A stretch of DNA of 36,577 nucleotides from a virus: positions 1 to 36,577 of the IMG/VR virus record IMGVR_UViG_3300042553_000608. The stretch is one strand, 5' to 3'. Both the position numbers and the translations under genes were made by a program. The notes beneath the pieces were generated by a model that worked only from the letters and a program-made list of their open reading frames with translations, was not told where the DNA came from and did not search any database. Positions 4,417 through 36,577 of this stretch are shown in pieces; position 1 is the stretch's first letter, and each line of letters opens with the position of its first letter.

Positions 4417-4997
4417 GTATTCTTTATCCGGATTCGCTACCGTTGGCTGTGTGCGTTGATGGTGTGGATTATCCCATCCGACCGGAGTTTTATATCGTGT
4501 TAGAAACCATTGCTATTATGAAAAACGATGAGTTACCGGTAAAAATAAGGCTGGAGCAGATGTTCGATTTATTTTATAAGGATACCATTCCTCAGAACAT
4601 CGATTCTGCTTTGGATGCTTTACTGCAATTTGTGAACGCTGGGAGCTGGAGCAATGGGTACCAAAGCAAAAACAAAAGCGATAATTTGTTGGATTGGGAA
4701 AAGGACGCACCGTTCATTTGGGCATCTATGAAACAGACATATCCAAATTGGGATTTTACTCACGCTCATTGGTTTGAATTTAAAGCTTGTTTTGACAGCT
4801 TGCCGGATAACTGCAAAATAAACGATGTCATTCGGATTCGCAATACAAAGATTACGTCATCTATGGGCAAAGAACAGAGGGAGGCAATGCAGGAATTAAA
4901 GCAGATGTATGCCTTGCCAAAAAAGAAAAATGTTAAATCAAAGAGTCCACGTGAGCTGGAGGCAGAATTGAAAAAACGAGCAGAGCAGGGGGTGTAA
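4413..4997 (+). CDS. Tail assembly chaperone, Gp15 family
   Basis: 194 residues with the pattern of the Bacteriophage Gp15 family: N-terminal DYPIRPEFYIVL segment, helical core with a LDALLQFVNAGS segment, then a DWEKDAPFIWASMKQTYP stretch and a conserved HWFEFKACFDSLPD segment, ending in a lysine-rich helix with a PRELEAELKKRA tail. The family lies between tail tube and tape-measure genes in Gram-positive siphophages and is thought to act in tail assembly. Start is GTG 4413. Confidence 0.85.
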   Translation: MSILYPDSLPLAVCVDGVDYPIRPEFYIVLETIAIMKNDELPVKIRLEQMFDLFYKDTIPQNIDSALDALLQFVNAGSWSNGYQSKNKSDNLLDWEKDAPFIWASMKQTYPNWDFTHAHWFEFKACFDSLPDNCKINDVIRIRNTKITSSMGKEQREAMQELKQMYALPKKKNVKSKSPRELEAELKKRAEQGV

Positions 4998-15271: not shown

Positions 15272-15281
15272 CCACATAATA

Positions 15282-15310
15282 AAAAGCTCCTCGAAAGAGG
15301 GGCTTTTTTT
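15282..15310 (+). terminator. Rho-independent terminator after the endolysin
   Basis: Stem of 11 bp (AAAAGCTCCTC 15282-15292 with GAGGGGCTTTT 15297-15307, one G-T pair), loop GAAA, then a T run to 15310. It ends the late transcript. Confidence 0.93.
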
Positions 15311-15313
15311 GCG

Positions 15314-15340
15314 TTTAGTGTAGCGAATGAACGAAATGAA
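15314..15340 (-). repeat. Iteron-like array, inverted copy (three 9-bp units)
   Basis: Read on the minus strand the units are TTCATTTCG, then TTCATTCGC, then TACACTAAA, directly adjacent. The same three-unit plan occurs at 15400-15426 and 35654-35680 on the plus strand. The adjacency and fixed 9-bp period suggest binding of a repeated protein unit. Confidence 0.65.
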
Positions 15341-15399
15341 CGCACTTTCCTATTATTTACTACACTTAATATGTTTTTATACAATAATTAGGGTTTGTA

Positions 15400-15426
15400 T
15401 TCATTTCATTCATTACGTTCACTAAA
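15400..15426 (+). repeat. Iteron-like array, direct copy (three 9-bp units)
   Basis: Units TTCATTTCA (15400-15408), TTCATTACG (15409-15417), TTCACTAAA (15418-15426). It ends 36 bases before the -35 box of the early promoter. It matches the array at 35654-35680 in plan and in most bases. Confidence 0.7.
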
Positions 15427-15462
15427 ATATATTTAATTAGAAATAAAATGTATTAAAATATA

Positions 15463-15491
15463 TTGACAAGCATATAATTATAGTTTATAAT
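15463..15491 (+). promoter_or_regulatory. Early promoter, sigma-A type
   Basis: TTGACA (15463-15468), a 17-base spacer, TATAAT (15486-15491): a perfect consensus pair. Transcription should begin near 15498 and read the early block from 15532. It also shows that an upstream in-frame ATG at 15490 cannot be the start of the first early gene. Confidence 0.93.
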
Positions 15492-18782: not shown

Positions 18783-19070
18783 ATGTTAAACAAGTATGTA
18801 ATTATTCGTGGAGACCGTTCCGGCATATTCGCAGGAGTTTTAAAAGAAAAGAATGGACAAGAGGTTATATTGACCGATTGTCGCAGATTATGGTATTGGC
18901 AAGGAGCAGCATCAATTAGTCAATTGGCTGTTGATGGTACATCCGATTCAATGAATTGCAAATTCACCGTTACTGTTGATGAAATTTGTGTTACCGACTG
19001 TATTGAAATTATACCTTGTACAGATAAAGCAGAAAAATCAATAAAGGATGTTGCAGAATGGAGAAGATAA
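18783..19070 (+). CDS. Small conserved phage protein, unknown
   Basis: 95 residues, beta-rich: YVIIRGDRSGIFAGVL, CRRLWYWQGAASISQLAVDG, then CKFTVTVDEICVTDCIEIIPC. I have the impression of a common small family of Firmicutes phages whose members contain the LWYWxGAxSxxQLAxxG pattern, and which often precede genes like the next one, but no function is known to me. It overlaps the repeat gene by 13 bases. Confidence 0.7.
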   Translation: MLNKYVIIRGDRSGIFAGVLKEKNGQEVILTDCRRLWYWQGAASISQLAVDGTSDSMNCKFTVTVDEICVTDCIEIIPCTDKAEKSIKDVAEWRR

Positions 19071-19684
19071 AAGAGTTTTTAACAGTTATTTATGGCTCTG
19101 GCTCTGGCTATGGCTCTGGCTATGGCGATGGCTCTGGCGATGGCGATGGCTCTGGCTATGGCGATGGCTCTGGCTCTGGCGATGGCTCTGGCTCTGGCTC
19201 TGGCTATGGCTCTGGCTATGGCTCTGGCTCTGGCTATGGCGATGGCGATGGCGATGGCTCTGGCTCTGGCTCTGGCTATGGCTCTGGCGATGGCTCTGGC
19301 GATGGCGATGGCGATGGCGATGGCATTAAGAAACTAAGAGGACTTAATGTTTATATAATTGATGATATTCAAACTATTATAACAAAATTAAGAAACAATG
19401 TTGCAAAAGGTTTTATTGTAAATAACGATTTGTCTTTAACACCATCTTATATCGTTAAGCAGAATAATCTATTTGCACACGGAAAAACACTTAAAGAAGC
19501 AATTTCTTCATTAGAAGACAAACTATTTGATGGTTTATCAACAGAAGAACGTATAGCAGAGTTTTGGAAAGTATTTAATCAAAAAGATAGGTATTCTGGT
19601 AATTTATTTTTTGAATGGCACAATAAATTGACACGCTCTTGTTTAATAGGCAGAGAGTCTTTTGTAAAAAAACAAGGGTGTTAA
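19058..19684 (+). CDS. Protein with a 77-residue Gly-Ser/Tyr/Asp repeat (frameshifted near its end)
   Basis: 208 residues in the present frame. After MEKIKEFLTVIY comes a pure G-[SYD] dipeptide tract (residues 13-89), predicted to be disordered and acidic, followed by a folded domain with GLNVYIIDDIQTII, SYIVKQNNLFAHG and the EFFEWHNKLTRSCLIGRESF-like region at about 187-203. The domain pattern is one I associate with repeat-linked proteins of gut phages and mobile elements; function unknown. AAAGGA (19043-19048) is nine bases before ATG 19058. A run of seven A at 19666-19672 shifts the frame, and the expected C-terminal ~30 residues continue in the +1 frame to 19775. Confidence 0.78.
   Translation: MEKIKEFLTVIYGSGSGYGSGYGDGSGDGDGSGYGDGSGSGDGSGSGSGYGSGYGSGSGYGDGDGDGSGSGSGYGSGDGSGDGDGDGDGIKKLRGLNVYIIDDIQTIITKLRNNVAKGFIVNNDLSLTPSYIVKQNNLFAHGKTLKEAISSLEDKLFDGLSTEERIAEFWKVFNQKDRYSGNLFFEWHNKLTRSCLIGRESFVKKQGC
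19094..19321 (+). repeat. Hexanucleotide tract, 38 units of GGC-NNT
   Basis: 228 bases made only of GGCTCT, GGCTAT and GGCGAT units. Loss or gain of units keeps the frame, so the coded linker can vary in length without breaking the protein. All three forward frames are open through it, so ORFs read in the other frames (Leu-Trp or Ala-Met/Leu repeats) are artefacts. Confidence 0.95.
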
Positions 19685-22203: not shown

Positions 22204-23596
22204 CAGCAAGATAACTGTTTATGATCCAACTAAAGAAATGCGAGCCTTGACTAAGGAGTTAAGGCTCGACAATCCGGATTATATCAAAAAGGAGCGAATG
22301 GGGCTGTGGATGGGCAAAACTCCGAGGTATATATATTTATACGAAGAGAATGCTGGCAGTTTGATTTTTCCTTTTGGGCTGGTTAATGATGTATGGAAAA
22401 TTTACAAGGGCACGTTTTGGAAGAATGACTTTGCTGATAACGGTCAAGTGGTATATGGCGACAACATTGAGCCTTATCCGTACCAAGAGGACGTTATAAA
22501 GGAAATGCTCCGGTGTAAAAATGGGATTGTGATTATGCCTTGCGGATCCGGCAAAACTCAAACTGCTTTGTCTGCAATCGCTCGGCTGGGTAAAAAAACG
22601 CTTTGGATAACGCACACGCACGAATTGCTCAAGCAGTCCATGGAAAGGGCAAAAGCGAACTTGACTGGTGGCTGGGGAACTATAACTGAAGGAAAGGTGA
22701 ACATCGGCTCCCACATCACTTTTGCTACGATTCAGACTTTAGTTTCGCTGGACTTGTCGCAGTACGCAACCGCTTGGGATGTCGTGGTGGTGGATGAGTG
22801 TCACAAAGCAATCGGCTCGCCTACAAGGGTGATGATGTTTTATAAGGTTTTGTCGTCCTTAAAGGCTCGGTATAAATTCGGGCTGACTGCAACCGCTGAA
22901 CGTGCGGACGGTCTTGAAAAGTGTATGTTCTCTTTGCTCGGCAGGAAGATTGCAGAAGTTTCACATGAAACAGTTTCTGACAAAACGGTACCGGTATTCA
23001 TTCAGCCGGTGCTTACCGGTTTCAAACCGGAGCCGACACGAATATGCAAAACGGACGGTACCATCGATTACGCAAAGGCTCAAAATGTTATGATTGACGA
23101 TGCCTGCAGAAATGAGGGGCTGGTTGATTTGATTTTAAATGAGCACGATAAAAATTTCATTGTTCTTTCAGACAGGGTGGCTCATTTGCACACGCTTAAT
23201 GATTTGCTGTTGTTTAAAGCCACGCAGGTCGGTTTAAAAGAGCGGAGTGTCGTTATATCGGCATCAGCGAAAAAGTCTGACAAAGAGGCACGCAGGACGG
23301 CTATTGAGCGAATGCAAACCGGCGAACTCCGAGTTTTATTTGCGACATACCAATTGGCGAAAGAGGGGCTGGACATTCCAAGGCTGGACGGAGTTGTTTT
23401 CGCTATGCCACACAAGGATTTCGCCACCATCATTCAGAGCTGTGGAAGGTGTTCACGCAAATTCGCCGGCAAGGAAAAAGGGACGGTCTACGACTTCGTT
23501 GATGACTTTGGTATGTATAAGGGAGCCTTTTCAAAAAGAAAGGCACATTATAAGCGAGTGAATTATATTGTGAATGAACCCATAGAATTATATTGA
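22187..23596 (+). CDS. DEAD/DEAH-type SF2 helicase (DECH box)
   Basis: 469 residues from ATG 22187 with GAGGAG 5'. Motif I PCGSGKTQ (about 118-125), motif II DECH (203-206), motif III TAT (234-236), a C-terminal RecA domain with the LFATYQLAKEGLDIPRLD motif V region, and motif VI QSCGRCSRK. Layout fits phage helicases of the UvsW/RAD25 (ResIII) type, which remodel forks and recombination intermediates. The N-terminal ~90 residues form a small separate domain. An early promoter begins inside the last codons of this gene. Confidence 0.9.
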   Translation: MHVRVDSKITVYDPTKEMRALTKELRLDNPDYIKKERMGLWMGKTPRYIYLYEENAGSLIFPFGLVNDVWKIYKGTFWKNDFADNGQVVYGDNIEPYPYQEDVIKEMLRCKNGIVIMPCGSGKTQTALSAIARLGKKTLWITHTHELLKQSMERAKANLTGGWGTITEGKVNIGSHITFATIQTLVSLDLSQYATAWDVVVVDECHKAIGSPTRVMMFYKVLSSLKARYKFGLTATAERADGLEKCMFSLLGRKIAEVSHETVSDKTVPVFIQPVLTGFKPEPTRICKTDGTIDYAKAQNVMIDDACRNEGLVDLILNEHDKNFIVLSDRVAHLHTLNDLLLFKATQVGLKERSVVISASAKKSDKEARRTAIERMQTGELRVLFATYQLAKEGLDIPRLDGVVFAMPHKDFATIIQSCGRCSRKFAGKEKGTVYDFVDDFGMYKGAFSKRKAHYKRVNYIVNEPIELY

Positions 23597-23621
23597 CTTA
23601 TATATAATTAAGGGTTATAAT
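23593..23621 (+). promoter_or_regulatory. Promoter for the primase block
   Basis: TTGACT (23593-23598), 17-base spacer, TATAAT (23616-23621). It overlaps the helicase stop codon region and directs the HTH regulator and the primase-helicase. Confidence 0.88.
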
Positions 23622-23847: not shown

Positions 23848-26208
23848 ATGGCGAAACTATTCGTTGAAAATATACCAGCCGAGCTGAAGGAATTAAAGCA
23901 GTGGGTTGGTTGGAAAATGACATTGCTTGCAGACGGTAAAACTTGGGGCAAAATTCCAAAGAATTGCTTCACCGGTGGAAACTCGCAGAGCAATAATGCT
24001 GACACTTGGAGCGATTTTAAAACAGCCATAAAGGCTGTTGATACATATAAATTTGATGGTGTCGGGTTCATGTTCGCTAATGGTTACTTTGGTGTCGACC
24101 TTGACCATGTGCTGGACGATGAAGATGCTGTGAATGGTATCGTGAAGGAATTTGTGCTAACTCTGAACAGCTACGCAGAGGTTTCTCAGAGTGGCACCGG
24201 CTTGCATATCATTTGCAAGGGTAGCTTGCCTGCAGGGCAACGCAGAAACGCAAGCGTTGAAATGTACCAAGACGGACGGTTCTTTATAATGACCGGTGAT
24301 TTGCTTTGGGGCGAGATTCGTGAGGTTCGAGATTGTACCGAGGAAATAAAGGCTTTGCACGAAAAGTATTTAAAAAAGAAATCGTCAGTGGTTTCTGATC
24401 GTGGAGCAGAGCTCGGCATCACCCTGTCTGATAGGGAAATTATCGAAAAAGCCGGAAACAGCAAACAGGGAGCACAGTTTAAAAGATTGTATGCCGGCAA
24501 TATGGACGGATATGACAGCCAATCCTCGGCTGACATCGCTTTGTGCAACATTCTCGCATTTTGGTGTGGGAAGAATGAATACCAAATGGACACCATCTTT
24601 CGCTCGTCCGGCTTAATGCGTGACAAGTGGGATAGAAGGCAGTCCGGCTCTACCTATGGCAAAATAACCATTGCTGATGCAATCGAAAACTGCAGAGAGG
24701 TTTATTCTCGCAGTAATAAATCTACGCACACCGAAACAAAGGCACAACCACGAGAAAACGAACCGAAGGCTCCGGCTCAAAAGGTGAAAGATTATCCGTA
24801 CAACGATACAGGAAACGCACAGCGTTTTGTCGATTATTTTGGGGATAATCTTTTTTATATGCATCAATCGAAAACTTGGCTGATTTGGGACGGTCGGTGC
24901 TGGGTGGAGGATTTGTCCGGCGAAGTTAAAAAGTTAGCGGACGAAACTATAAACCGGATGAAGATACAGGCTTGGGAGGAAGAGGACGACGAAAAAAAGG
25001 AAATGCTTTTAAAATGGGCACACAAGACTTCATCTTCAAAGACTAAGGTGGCAATGCTTACCGAAAGTCAGCACGTTGGTGATATTCCCAAGTTGATGTC
25101 GGATTTTGATTTGCATAAGGATTTCTTTAACTGCAAAAACGGGATCGTAAATTTGAAAAATGGCGAACTGATTCCACACGATAAAGGCTATATGATGACA
25201 AAGATTTCGAACTGTGAATATGACAATGTGTCCGGCAAGCAACCGGAGCGATGGATTAAGTTTCTCGACGATGTCACCGGTGGCGACAAGGAATTGCAGA
25301 GGTATATTCAGAAGGCTGTCGGTTATTCTCTCACCGGATCCATTCGGGAGCAGTGTCTTTTTATGTGCTACGGTTTAGGACAGAACGGTAAAAGCACATT
25401 TTTGGAAACGGTTACCGATATCCTCGGCGGATATGCTCGAAACGCTCAAACTGAAACTATAATGTTGAATGTTAAGGGTGCAAGTGGAGGCTCGTCTGCA
25501 TCGCCGGACATCGCTCGTTTAAAGGGTGCGAGAATGGTCACAGCGAACGAACCGAACCAAGGTGTAAGGATGAACGAAGGGCTTGTGAAACAGTTAACCG
25601 GTGGCGATAAAATCACAGCGAGATTTCTGCACAGCAGGGAGTTTGAGTTTGTGCCGGAGTTTAAACTTTGGATGTCGGCAAACAACAAACCTATTATCAC
25701 CGGAACGGATCAAGGTATATGGCGAAGGATGAGGCTCATTCCGTTTATTGTGCAAATACCGGAAAACAAAAGGGACAAGAGCTTAAAGTCAAAATTAAAC
25801 AAGGAGTTACCTCAAATCCTTAAATGGGCGGTTGACGGTTGTATTATGTGGCTAAGAGAGGGACTGAACGTTCCGGCTTGCGTTGAAAAAGCGACTGCAG
25901 AGTATCGGCAGGAAATGGATTCACTCGGTCAGTTTTGTGATTTGGCTTTGGAGCCGGACAATTCGGCATCCTGCAAGTTTGCGGATATATATGAGGCATA
26001 CGTTTCTTGGGCAGAAGAAAACCACGAATATTTGCTGTCAGCTAATAAATTCGGCAAAGATTTGGTGAAACGATATCCGGACAGGTACCGGCTCGGTGAT
26101 GGCATTTATTATAAACGCATTAAGTTGTCCGAGTATGGGCTGAACCTAATTAAAAAGTCGCAAACGGTCACAGGGTACCAGCAGAAGTTTTCGGGGAGTG
26201 GTGCGTAG
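23848..26208 (+). CDS. D5-type primase-helicase (P4 alpha-like)
   Basis: 786 residues with three parts. Primase-polymerase-like domain 1-170: GVDLDH (metal site, about 82-87), SGTGLHIICKG (115-125), FFIMTGD (145-151). D5 N-terminal region about 310-480. SF3 helicase about 480-660: Walker A GLGQNGKST (509-517), motif B ARMVTANEPN (561-570), motif C KLWMSANNK (606-614), and an IWRRMRLIPF arginine region. The last part (about 691-761) is a winged helix, the origin-recognition place in P4 alpha. It should prime and unwind the phage origin; no phage DNA polymerase is present, so the host enzyme would be used. Confidence 0.95.
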   Translation: MAKLFVENIPAELKELKQWVGWKMTLLADGKTWGKIPKNCFTGGNSQSNNADTWSDFKTAIKAVDTYKFDGVGFMFANGYFGVDLDHVLDDEDAVNGIVKEFVLTLNSYAEVSQSGTGLHIICKGSLPAGQRRNASVEMYQDGRFFIMTGDLLWGEIREVRDCTEEIKALHEKYLKKKSSVVSDRGAELGITLSDREIIEKAGNSKQGAQFKRLYAGNMDGYDSQSSADIALCNILAFWCGKNEYQMDTIFRSSGLMRDKWDRRQSGSTYGKITIADAIENCREVYSRSNKSTHTETKAQPRENEPKAPAQKVKDYPYNDTGNAQRFVDYFGDNLFYMHQSKTWLIWDGRCWVEDLSGEVKKLADETINRMKIQAWEEEDDEKKEMLLKWAHKTSSSKTKVAMLTESQHVGDIPKLMSDFDLHKDFFNCKNGIVNLKNGELIPHDKGYMMTKISNCEYDNVSGKQPERWIKFLDDVTGGDKELQRYIQKAVGYSLTGSIREQCLFMCYGLGQNGKSTFLETVTDILGGYARNAQTETIMLNVKGASGGSSASPDIARLKGARMVTANEPNQGVRMNEGLVKQLTGGDKITARFLHSREFEFVPEFKLWMSANNKPIITGTDQGIWRRMRLIPFIVQIPENKRDKSLKSKLNKELPQILKWAVDGCIMWLREGLNVPACVEKATAEYRQEMDSLGQFCDLALEPDNSASCKFADIYEAYVSWAEENHEYLLSANKFGKDLVKRYPDRYRLGDGIYYKRIKLSEYGLNLIKKSQTVTGYQQKFSGSGA

Positions 26209-26573
26209 TGAGGAAAGTTATCGGCTCGACAAGAATTGTTTTTGTGTTTGAAAAGTTTGTTGTTAAAATTCCAAGGTTAACAAAGTACAGCTCTGCGTTG
26301 TACGGTTTGTTGTCAAATTTGCAAGAGCGAGAATATTCTCTTAAACATTGCGATTTAGCGAAGGTTTTGTTTGGCGATTTTTTGGGTTTTATCGTAGTTA
26401 TGGAGAGAGCTGATGCTTTAAGTTGTAAGACGACAAATGAAATTGAATTTGCTCAAATGTTAGAAGAAAAATACAAAAATGATGAATTGAAACACTTTAT
26501 GCTGTACGATGCAATTCCAGAAAACTGGGGACATATTAATGGACGTTTAATAAAAATAGATTATGGATTGTAA
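26208..26573 (+). CDS. Minimal kinase-like protein
   Basis: 121 residues, GTG start overlapping the primase stop by one base. The order of residues follows the protein kinase/APH fold: Lys20 in FVVKIPR (beta 3), Glu42 in LQEREYS (helix C), a FIVVMERAD hinge (61-69), Asp101-x4-Asn106 in YDAIPEN (catalytic loop, like HxDxxxxN) and Asp118 in IDYG (like DFG). The protein ends one residue after this motif, so there is no activation segment or C-lobe. It lacks a normal glycine-rich loop. Kinase activity is inference; a non-catalytic nucleotide-binding role is possible. Confidence 0.6.
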   Translation: MRKVIGSTRIVFVFEKFVVKIPRLTKYSSALYGLLSNLQEREYSLKHCDLAKVLFGDFLGFIVVMERADALSCKTTNEIEFAQMLEEKYKNDELKHFMLYDAIPENWGHINGRLIKIDYGL

Positions 26574-35320: not shown

Positions 35321-35324
35321 AACG

Positions 35325-35353
35325 AAACACCGGCTTAAAATGTCGGTGTTTTT
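35325..35353 (+). terminator. Rho-independent terminator after the minor capsid gene
   Basis: AACACCGGC (35326-35334) with GTCGGTGTT (35342-35350), nine pairs, one G-T, loop of seven, then a T run (35349-35353). It ends the transcript from terminase to minor capsid protein. Confidence 0.9.
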
Positions 35354-35424: not shown

Positions 35425-35506
35425 AAACCGACACAATACACATCATTGTTGATAAATTAAAGTAATATTGCACAAATTAAAACCGTTTTAGTGTAGGCAC
35501 ATTTGC

Positions 35507-35708
35507 AAAAACACTATTTTTCTGTAATCCTTGCGACAGTAGAGTTTTATTATATTATTATGTATTGTTTTACATCTTAGTGTATAAAATGAATAAAGGT
35601 TATATATTTTTTATGAAAATACAAAGCAGTATAGAAAAAAATAGGGAAATGCCTTCATTTTGTTCACTGCCTTCACTAAATGCAAAGTTTTATAAAAACA
35701 CTATTTTT
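35507..35708 (+). repeat. Two copies of AAAAACACTATTTTT
   Basis: Copies at 35507-35521 and 35694-35708 are identical over 15 bases and have an A-tract and a T-tract around CACTA, which may bend the DNA. They bracket the central part of the non-coding region. Confidence 0.6.
35654..35680 (+). repeat. Iteron-like array (three 9-bp units)
   Basis: Units TTCATTTTG (35654-35662), TTCACTGCC (35663-35671), TTCACTAAA (35672-35680). The plan and most bases equal the array at 15400-15426. It lies 80 bases upstream of the -35 box at 35761. Confidence 0.7.
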
Positions 35709-35760: not shown

Positions 35761-35789
35761 TTGACAGAATTTTTTTTAAATGCTACACT
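35761..35789 (+). promoter_or_regulatory. Promoter of the winged-helix gene
   Basis: TTGACA (35761-35766), 17-base spacer, TACACT (35784-35789). The -10 box is part of a TACACTAAA element that recurs in both non-coding regions, so a protein that binds this element would also block the promoter. Confidence 0.8.
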
Positions 35790-35814
35790 AAAATAAAAAA
35801 CGGAGGAATTTTGT

Positions 35815-36072
35815 ATGTATTTGAAAGCAACGACAGTGAATTTGGACGTGGTGAAGTTATTTGTGAAAGATAGAATTATTCTTGAGCCACCTATTAATGC
35901 AAGCACATCATTGTATGTTTCGGAAATTTACAACGATTACTTATCTTGGAGCGAAGGCAATTTTCAGTTGTCTAAGTGTTTAGTTGCTCGCATTTTAAAA
36001 CGGATTTATCCGAGACGAGTCGGCCGGAATAGCACCGGTATTTTCTACAAAGGGTTCGCTTTAAAAAAATAA
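35815..36072 (+). CDS. Stand-alone winged-helix protein, paralogue of the primase C-terminal domain
   Basis: 85 residues, CGGAGGAATT before ATG 35815. Residues about 12-83 align with primase-helicase residues 692-760: shared features include LF/QF start, ILEPPINAS against LEPDNSAS, EIYNDYLSWSEGN against DIYEAYVSWAEEN, KRIYPRR against KRYPDRY, and a final GIFYKGFAL against GIYYKRIKL. This is the D5-type winged helix that in P4 alpha recognises origin repeats. On its own it could compete with the primase for DNA or form a regulator. It stands alone between two promoters, within the late region. Confidence 0.78.
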   Translation: MYLKATTVNLDVVKLFVKDRIILEPPINASTSLYVSEIYNDYLSWSEGNFQLSKCLVARILKRIYPRRVGRNSTGIFYKGFALKK

Positions 36073-36101
36073 TTGACAAAATATTCAAATAGTGATACGA
36101 T
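36073..36101 (+). promoter_or_regulatory. Promoter for scaffold and coat genes
   Basis: TTGACA (36073-36078) begins right after the previous stop codon; 17-base spacer; TACGAT (36096-36101). It gives a leader of about 150 bases before the scaffold start at 36259 and feeds the coat and tail tube genes up to the terminator at 4010. Confidence 0.82.
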
Positions 36102-36258
36102 TATTTCAACAAAGGCTATCGCAATTCGCCGGCGAAGAGGTGCGTGCATCGGATTAAGCTGGGCGAATGATGGACACGAAGGTGTTCGTTTCCGGCTTTA
36201 GCGTTTCAAGGGAGGAGCTAACCTCGTAAAAATAAGCGTAATTTGAAAGGAGCTATTT
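36102..36258 (+). ncRNA. Structured leader RNA upstream of the scaffold gene, pseudoknot-capable
   Basis: Pairings visible: outer AAAGGCTA (36111-36118) with TAGCGTTT (36199-36206), one mismatch; ATTCGCC (36124-36130) with GGCGAAT (36162-36168); AAGCTGG (36156-36162) with CCGGCTT (36192-36198), one G-T pair; hairpin GGACAC/GTGTTC (36172-36187, loop GAAG). The second and third interlock as a pseudoknot. ATTCGCC also has rival partners (a TTCGCCGGCGAA palindrome at 36125-36136 and CGGATT at 36150-36155), so two folds are possible. I could not match it to a known riboswitch or ribozyme with confidence. Confidence 0.5.
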
Positions 36259-36577
36259 ATGAAAAGAGAGCAATTAAAGGAAATCGGTATATCGGACGAG
36301 TTGATTGACAAGGTTATGGATTTAAACGGAAAAGATATCGAACCGCTGAAATCCAAAACCGAAAGCCTGCAGGGGGAACTCACAAAGGCGAACACTGCAC
36401 TGGCTGATGTCAACGCAAAATTAAAGGCTTTTGATGGTGTGGATGTCGAGGGAATGAAGAAAACCATAGCTGATATGGACACAAAGTATAATTCTGATAT
36501 CACTCAGTTAAAACTGAATTATGCTATTTCCGAGGCAATCAAAGAATTGAAACCACACAAGGTCGAGGCTGTTATGC
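36259..36577 (+). CDS. Phage scaffold protein, GP20 family (5' part; continues at base 1)
   Basis: From ATG 36259, preceded by AAAGGAG (36246-36252). The unique part (36259-36450) encodes 64 residues and the gene continues into bases 1-381, giving 190 residues in total. The N-terminus is a basic helix (MKREQLKEIG) followed by heptad-like Leu spacing (LKSKTESLQGELTKANTALADVNAKL), a coiled coil typical of GP20 scaffolds. It shares a transcript with the coat gene. Confidence 0.87.
   Translation, partial: MKREQLKEIGISDELIDKVMDLNGKDIEPLKSKTESLQGELTKANTALADVNAKLKAFDGVDVEGMKKTIADMDTKYNSDITQLKLNYAISEAIKELKPHKVEAVM
36451..36577. repeat. Terminal redundancy, identical to 1-127
   Basis: Second copy of the end overlap described at base 1. 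It should be removed when the circle is closed. Confidence 0.93.

Follow-up and report, generated by a model that had tools for sequence, protein, structure and literature searches.

Organization of the two paired sites

The window, by which we mean the whole stretch of 36,577 nucleotides that was analysed (IMG/VR record IMGVR_UViG_3300042553_000608), contains two outward-facing paired sites, at positions 15314–15426 (site 1) and 35576–35680 (site 2), each arranged around an AT-rich spacer and measuring 113 bp and 105 bp respectively from one outer end to the other. All of the gene-sized ORFs of the window are on the plus strand, and an exact repeat of 127 bp is present at its two ends (1–127 and 36451–36577), which gives a circle of about 36,450 bp. 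An end repeat of this kind fits a genome that is circular, or circularly permuted, and was assembled with an overlap. Around this circle about 20.3 kb separates the two sites in one direction and 16.2 kb in the other, and the preliminary description of them as nearly opposite is loose but fair.

Site 1 lies just beyond a terminator-like hairpin (15281–15308, plus strand) that ends the structural and lysis operon after an amidase-like gene. Its left arm (15314–15340, minus strand) is composed of the three 9 bp units TTCATTTCG, TTCATTCGC and TACACTAAA, and its right arm (15400–15426, plus strand) of TTCATTTCA, TTCATTACG and TTCACTAAA; the spacer between them (15341–15399; 59 bp, 25% GC) is a candidate unwinding element. 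The promoter of the early operon (15463–15491, plus strand) agrees with the consensus at 12 of 12 positions, its −35 element beginning 37 bp past the right arm, and the most likely start of the first early gene, with AGGAGG before it, is 15532. We note that the promoter-like stretch at 15456–15491 is 78% identical over 36 bp to another at 23586–23621, which precedes an Xre gene and the primase gene and has no array.

Site 2 is preceded by a terminator-like hairpin (35324–35352, plus strand) that follows the minor capsid gene (Phage_min_cap2). Its left arm (35576–35593, minus strand) has the two units TTCATTTTA and TACACTAAG, its spacer (35594–35653) is 60 bp long with 23% GC, and its right arm (35654–35680, plus strand) has the units TTCATTTTG, TTCACTGCC and TTCACTAAA. 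Two lone copies of the outer unit, CTACACTAAA, are located in the same gap, at 35487–35496 (minus strand) and 35783–35792 (plus strand). The structural-operon promoter (35761–35789, plus strand; 10 of 12 consensus positions, with TG before the −10 element) has a −35 element that starts 81 bp beyond the right arm, and its −10 element, TACACT, lies inside the second of these lone units. The gene immediately downstream of site 2 (35815–36072, plus strand) heads the structural operon and encodes a protein of 85 aa.

The gaps that hold the two sites have 26% and 27% GC respectively and are both situated between operons, behind terminators. The arrays are confined to these two long non-coding regions, as had been proposed, with no other match in the window. 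GC skew, which had been put forward as a check on the origin, is positive in every 1 kb segment and is uninformative on this point, and a search of Rfam at the gathering threshold gave no match anywhere in the window.

Iteron arrays

Each 27 bp array consists of three head-to-tail 9-mers, the outermost being TWCACTAAA, or TTTAGTGWA in the other direction. When the window was scanned with the 27 bp pattern TTCAYTNNNTTCAYTNNNTWCACTAAA, allowing up to three mismatches, exactly three matches were found, all without mismatches (15314–15340, minus strand; 15400–15426 and 35654–35680, plus strand), and there were none in 100 dinucleotide shuffles of the window. The pattern read backwards gave no match in the window at the same tolerance, and among the 120 permutations of the unit TTCAYT the true order has the most exact tandem pairs (five, with two for the runner-up). 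The three arrays and their common 9-mer plan are thus confirmed as real features of this DNA; the many equal matches inside genes that the preliminary description had named as grounds for refutation did not appear.

Its inventory of three arrays was nevertheless incomplete, since the two-unit minus-strand arm at 35576–35593 had been overlooked and was uncovered here by a two-unit search. A match to this arm with at most one mismatch arises in 4 of 3000 shuffles of its own AT-rich gap, and two copies of the lone outer unit within the gap in none of 3000. A single two-arm pattern, composed only after both sites were known, matches 15314–15426 and 35576–35680 and nowhere else in the window, and is absent from 100 shuffles. 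Across the four arms the units are spaced at 9 bp, and nine of the 11 have the core TTCAYT (the RTGAA core on the other strand), the remaining two having TACACT (AGTGTA). These units are more degenerate than the iterons of most relatives: an unbiased word-cluster scan of the window placed site 1 eighth of 484 segments and missed site 2 by its own units. The shared core, TNCAY, is short, and by our estimate would agree by chance about once in seven, which is not a small figure.

The primase-helicase and a free-standing copy of its C-terminal domain

The presumed initiator is a P4-family primase-helicase encoded in the early operon (23848–26208, plus strand), which matches PHROG 1829, NrS-1 polymerase HBD, D5_N and Pox_D5. 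Its N-terminal part matches structure 7OLA (E-value 1e-48), which we take to be a SaPI5 protein. The C-terminal domain (25897–26205, plus strand) is modelled as a winged helix of the RFX/P4 origin-binding kind and is the presumed reader of the iterons; its closest structural matches are to RFX DNA-binding domains and to the C-terminal domain of AsfvPrimPol, 1DP7 and 8ZJR are among the best structural matches, and the Pfam model RFX_DNA_binding matches 19 of the 25 domain sequences that we aligned. RFX proteins are eukaryotic transcription factors, and the fold alone is common to them and the window protein. At the level of family and predicted fold, the presumed initiator of the window is a primase-helicase with a C-terminal winged helix, as in a P4-type replicon. 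An ORF (26208–26573) starts at the stop codon of the primase gene, leaving no downstream origin gap, and no repeat cluster near the primase end was present among the 25 top segments listed in the word-cluster scan of the window. The closest primase domain, at 43% identity, is that of locus L007, which sits above CAT-type repeats such as CCTTCATAG.

The sequence of the 85-aa product of the gene beside site 2 marks it as a free-standing copy of the primase C-terminal winged helix. In a two-sequence comparison the two are 36% identical over 67 aa (E-value 2e-7), and the match of the protein to a profile of the domain has an E-value of 4e-16, with the profile including the 85-aa row itself. In an alignment of 25 rows, the motif Tyr-Pro-x-Arg after the recognition helix is found only in this protein and in the window primase. 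The predicted structure (mean pLDDT 83) has its best matches in AsfvPrimPol and RFX, not TubR, and it aligns with the P4 origin-binding domain 1KA8 over 72 residues with a Z score of 6.5, a value within the range of unrelated winged helices, and an rmsd of 3.0. No Pfam family is matched. A tree of the 25 domains, which has long branches and no starred fork, left the ancestry of the protein unplaced. The only match found by tblastn on the phage records is a weak one to a primase (E-value 0.5), and a profile search of the collected loci detected no other free-standing domain with an E-value better than 0.006; three weak small ORFs (in L093, L097 and L015) had no family match above the cut-off. 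We recognized no description of a free-standing origin-binding domain in a literature search, nor in one directed at the P4 regulator Cnr, both covering papers available without subscription.

Origins beside related primases

In Firmicutes phages that encode primases of this family the primase gene is typically followed by a noncoding gap, 190 to 378 bp long in the 16 annotated cases, and the records of Lactobacillus phages A2 and phiadh carry a rep_origin annotation in this gap. The origins of A2 and phiadh have been the subject of experimental work. In 21 of 24 gaps directly downstream of related primases the best 8-mer cluster scored above all 15 shuffles, which preserve base composition only; the exceptions are TMW 1.591, which ties, L004 and L005. 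The 24 gaps include near-duplicates (PSA and B025; IME1365 and CoNPh25; L004, L005 and L006). JCL1032, which has no gap, was left out, as were L008 and L019, which are the same as L009, and L026–L029, which repeat L004, L009, L019 and L020. A fixed length of 320 bp was used for eight rows, and the JNU_P5 gap was counted past an annotated ORF of 93 bp. The analysis covered loci from 20 of the 51 listed phage records, with JCL1032 taken twice.

A layout common among these relatives places GTG-type iterons as direct repeats to the left of an AT-rich core and inverted copies of them to its right, though there are variations. The repeat word itself differs from phage to phage (for example ACTATCCACC, CTATTCACT, ACCTGTCA and TTCACTTT), as it should if every C-terminal domain recognizes a target of its own. 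A Bacillota MAG contig (L020) has dense GGTTCACT repeats right behind its primase gene, at 1650–1880, with the same iteron core as P4. In the four whole Gram-positive phage genomes that were scanned, the iterons are present at one site only, adjoining the primase gene, which argues that a double site is not typical outside P4.

Lactobacillus phage JCL1032 (L127) resembles the window in having a primase gene with no gap downstream. GTGACAG repeats surround AT-rich DNA at approximately 421–632 of its record, more than 11 kb from the primase gene even if the genome is circularized. This cluster was picked by eye and is tenth in the ranked list, and is thus a lead rather than proof, but it makes 421–632 a candidate for an origin that has been relocated, and the host of this phage is cultured. 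Since JCL1032 also lacks the gap and has a similar distant site, relocation of the origin in the window phage is plausible.

Search for relatives carrying the arrays

Scans of the viral collection with the one-arm and two-arm patterns identified no relative with the arrays. The one-arm pattern has a single match in IMG/VR, in L010, which was rejected as a relative because its TTCACT/AGTGAA repeats (4560–4640) form part of a long hairpin between two genes, a different layout. The two-arm pattern has two further matches in the viral collection, of which one lies within a gene and the other straddles the junction of two consecutive genes; these loci, L125 and L126, have no proteins in common with the window and were also set aside as relatives. 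A scan of the genome collection gave two loci.

Searches of the viral collection with the product of the gene at 15490, the 85-aa protein and the major capsid protein gave no relatives, and the minor capsid protein found four distant loci, none with the arrays or with a clear free-standing domain. Among the best 80 of 493 candidate loci found with a terminase profile, only L045 is close (terminase 92% identical); it is a fragment of 4771 bp corresponding to about 28.6–33.6 kb of the window and reaches neither site. When 21.6 kb of the window was compared with phage records by megablast, nothing matched.

Comparison with known replicons

The interpretation in the preliminary description is supported in part. 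Its comparison with P4 finds support in the primase family, the winged helix, the type-1 repeats of P4 and the way in which the iterons of relatives flank AT-rich DNA. P4 and the window phage have in common a P4-family primase-helicase with a C-terminal winged helix, here the presumed DNA reader, and two separated iteron sites (ori and crr in P4, sites 1 and 2 here). The iterons of P4 have a GTGAA-like core at a spacing of 9–11 bp; those of the window, spaced at 9 bp, have RTGAA in nine of 11 units and AGTGTA in two. In the P4 record the type-1 repeats are mostly TGTTCACC, spaced at 9 bp in crr and at 10–11 bp in ori, and crr is a pair of 120 bp direct repeats beside the alpha gene. The window differs in that its units are more degenerate than those of P4, its gaps contain no 120 bp repeats of the crr type, neither site adjoins the primase gene, and a free-standing copy of the DNA-binding domain is encoded.

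Gram-positive phages with PHROG 1829-like primases (A2, phiadh, Listeria phage PSA and others) share with the window both the primase family and the iteron arms around an AT-rich core. Their origins, however, come straight after the primase gene, with one site in each of the four whole genomes, JCL1032 being the exception as to location, whereas the window has two sites that are both far from the primase gene. Iterons directly downstream of the primase or Rep gene, as in Gram-positive phages and SaPIs, are thus found neither in the window nor in JCL1032, while outward-facing iteron arms around AT-rich DNA, also characteristic of that group, are present in the window. In SCCmec, as described in PMC7581432, Cch2 uses three AAGTG repeats within 23 bp, and in SaPI and SCCmec elements alike short iterons are recognized through the C-terminal domain of a D5-family helicase. 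These origins form a single site directly downstream of the helicase gene, and the passages of that source consulted here make no mention of a free-standing domain; in both respects the window differs. By their build, then, the window sites look like iteron sites of the P4/SaPI type without the usual location beside the initiator gene.

Possible functions of the paired sites

The explanation that we favour, with a probability of roughly 0.6, is that the two paired sites are iterons read by a winged helix of the RFX/P4 type and that at least one of them is a replication origin; put more generally, they are probably replication origins or copy-control sites. The absence of the paired pattern from shuffles, the AT-rich gaps between operons, the P4-family primase and the iteron-bearing gaps of relatives all point in this direction, and set against it are the degenerate units, the short core, the single sites of the relatives and the failure to find a relative with the arrays. 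On such a model the C-terminal winged helix of the primase-helicase would bind the 9 bp units of each arm, flanking the AT-rich spacer, and helicase assemblies on both arms would melt the spacer and then load. Of the units, the outermost (TTTAGTGWA) varies least and would probably be the strongest. Either by occupying the same units or by pairing with the primase domain, the 85-aa protein probably limits initiation; with a CTACACTAAA unit on the −10 element of its own promoter, it may also shut off its own operon. A P4 precedent for control through the pairing of winged-helix proteins is suggested by the title of a paper by Yeo et al. (2002). The sites thus offer a candidate replication origin in a phage that is uncultured, and are a hint that the customary arrangement, with the origin directly behind a P4-type primase gene, can be broken. 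The use of an initiator's DNA-binding domain as a free-standing copy would be a simple and genetically tractable form of replication control. P4 has a replication regulator, Cnr, to whose role such control would be comparable; unlike Cnr, it would act here through duplication of a part of the initiator itself.

The sites could alternatively be operators, through which the 85-aa winged helix or some other phage regulator coordinates the early (15463) and structural (35761) operons and which have no part in replication. Operators would equally explain the promoters downstream of both sites: one site precedes each of the two operon promoters, the gene for the regulator would stand at the head of one of the operons, and the CTACACTAAA unit that covers its −10 element fits autorepression. 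The arms, however, do not overlap the −35 elements, which start 37 and 81 bp beyond them, the early promoter, which matches the consensus perfectly, has no need of an activator, the third promoter-like stretch, before the primase gene, is without an array, and an origin is the better fit for paired arms with an AT-rich spacer between them. We regard a purely regulatory function as rather doubtful, but the loose units, the one-site relatives, the want of an array-bearing relative and the shortness of L045 together leave room for it, and the suggestion in the preliminary description of operators shared by two regulons keeps some force from the free-standing domain gene beside one site and the unit on its −10 element. 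The two Xre proteins and the MazE/AbrB-like proteins were considered as iteron binders and were set aside or given less weight, judging by the operators usual for such proteins.

Two special cases of the favoured explanation differ in the part given to each site. In one, the origin is site 1 alone, and site 2 would serve as an operator or to titrate the free-standing domain; both arms are complete at site 1 (3+3 units), while site 2 has 2+3 units together with two lone outer units, one of them on a promoter. We consider this division of labour possible but somewhat less likely than not, given that no sequence feature separates the two functions and the spacers are equally AT-rich. The bipartite origin of the preliminary description, in which both sites are needed in cis with one ori-like and one crr-like as in P4, draws on the same unit plan being present at two sites, just as the P4 type-1 repeats are split between ori and crr. 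P4 thus gives the idea a precedent, but the crr of P4 is made of 120 bp direct repeats beside the alpha gene, neither window site adjoins the primase gene, and the Gram-positive relatives scanned have one site each, so that a bipartite origin is conceivable and, in our judgement, unlikely.

Two further explanations fare worse. Since short direct repeats precede a small winged-helix gene, a phage-plasmid might have its centromere or partition site here, recognized by a small winged-helix protein of the TubR kind; yet the 85-aa protein visibly resembles the domain of the primase itself, with its best structural matches in AsfvPrimPol and RFX, and no gene of the ParA or TubZ type was found among the proteins searched, which are part of the ORFs, and we think a partition site very improbable. 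That the repeats are the product of chance or low complexity is scarcely credible: the units are short and AT-rich, and a similar repeat occurs in the unrelated intergenic hairpin of L010, but neither the single nor the paired pattern arises in shuffles, and the paired pattern has only its two further matches in the viral collection, one in a gene and one across two genes.

A more specific version of the favoured explanation, which is speculative and which we would not expect to hold in full, is that the origin has become detached from the initiator gene and doubled, and that the free-standing copy of the origin-binding domain competes for both origins or pairs them, and represses the structural operon that it heads. 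If true, one small domain would switch the genome between replication and late gene expression.

Other sequence features

A noncoding leader (36073–36259) separates the gene for the 85-aa protein from a scaffold-like gene. It has a promoter-like sequence (TTGACA-17-TACGAT) and a stretch of higher GC content, perhaps a structured RNA, with no Rfam match at the gathering threshold. Tandem repeats of 12 and 18 bp are present at 19055–19366, within the ORF at 19058–19684, and encode a long stretch rich in Gly, Ser, Tyr and Asp.
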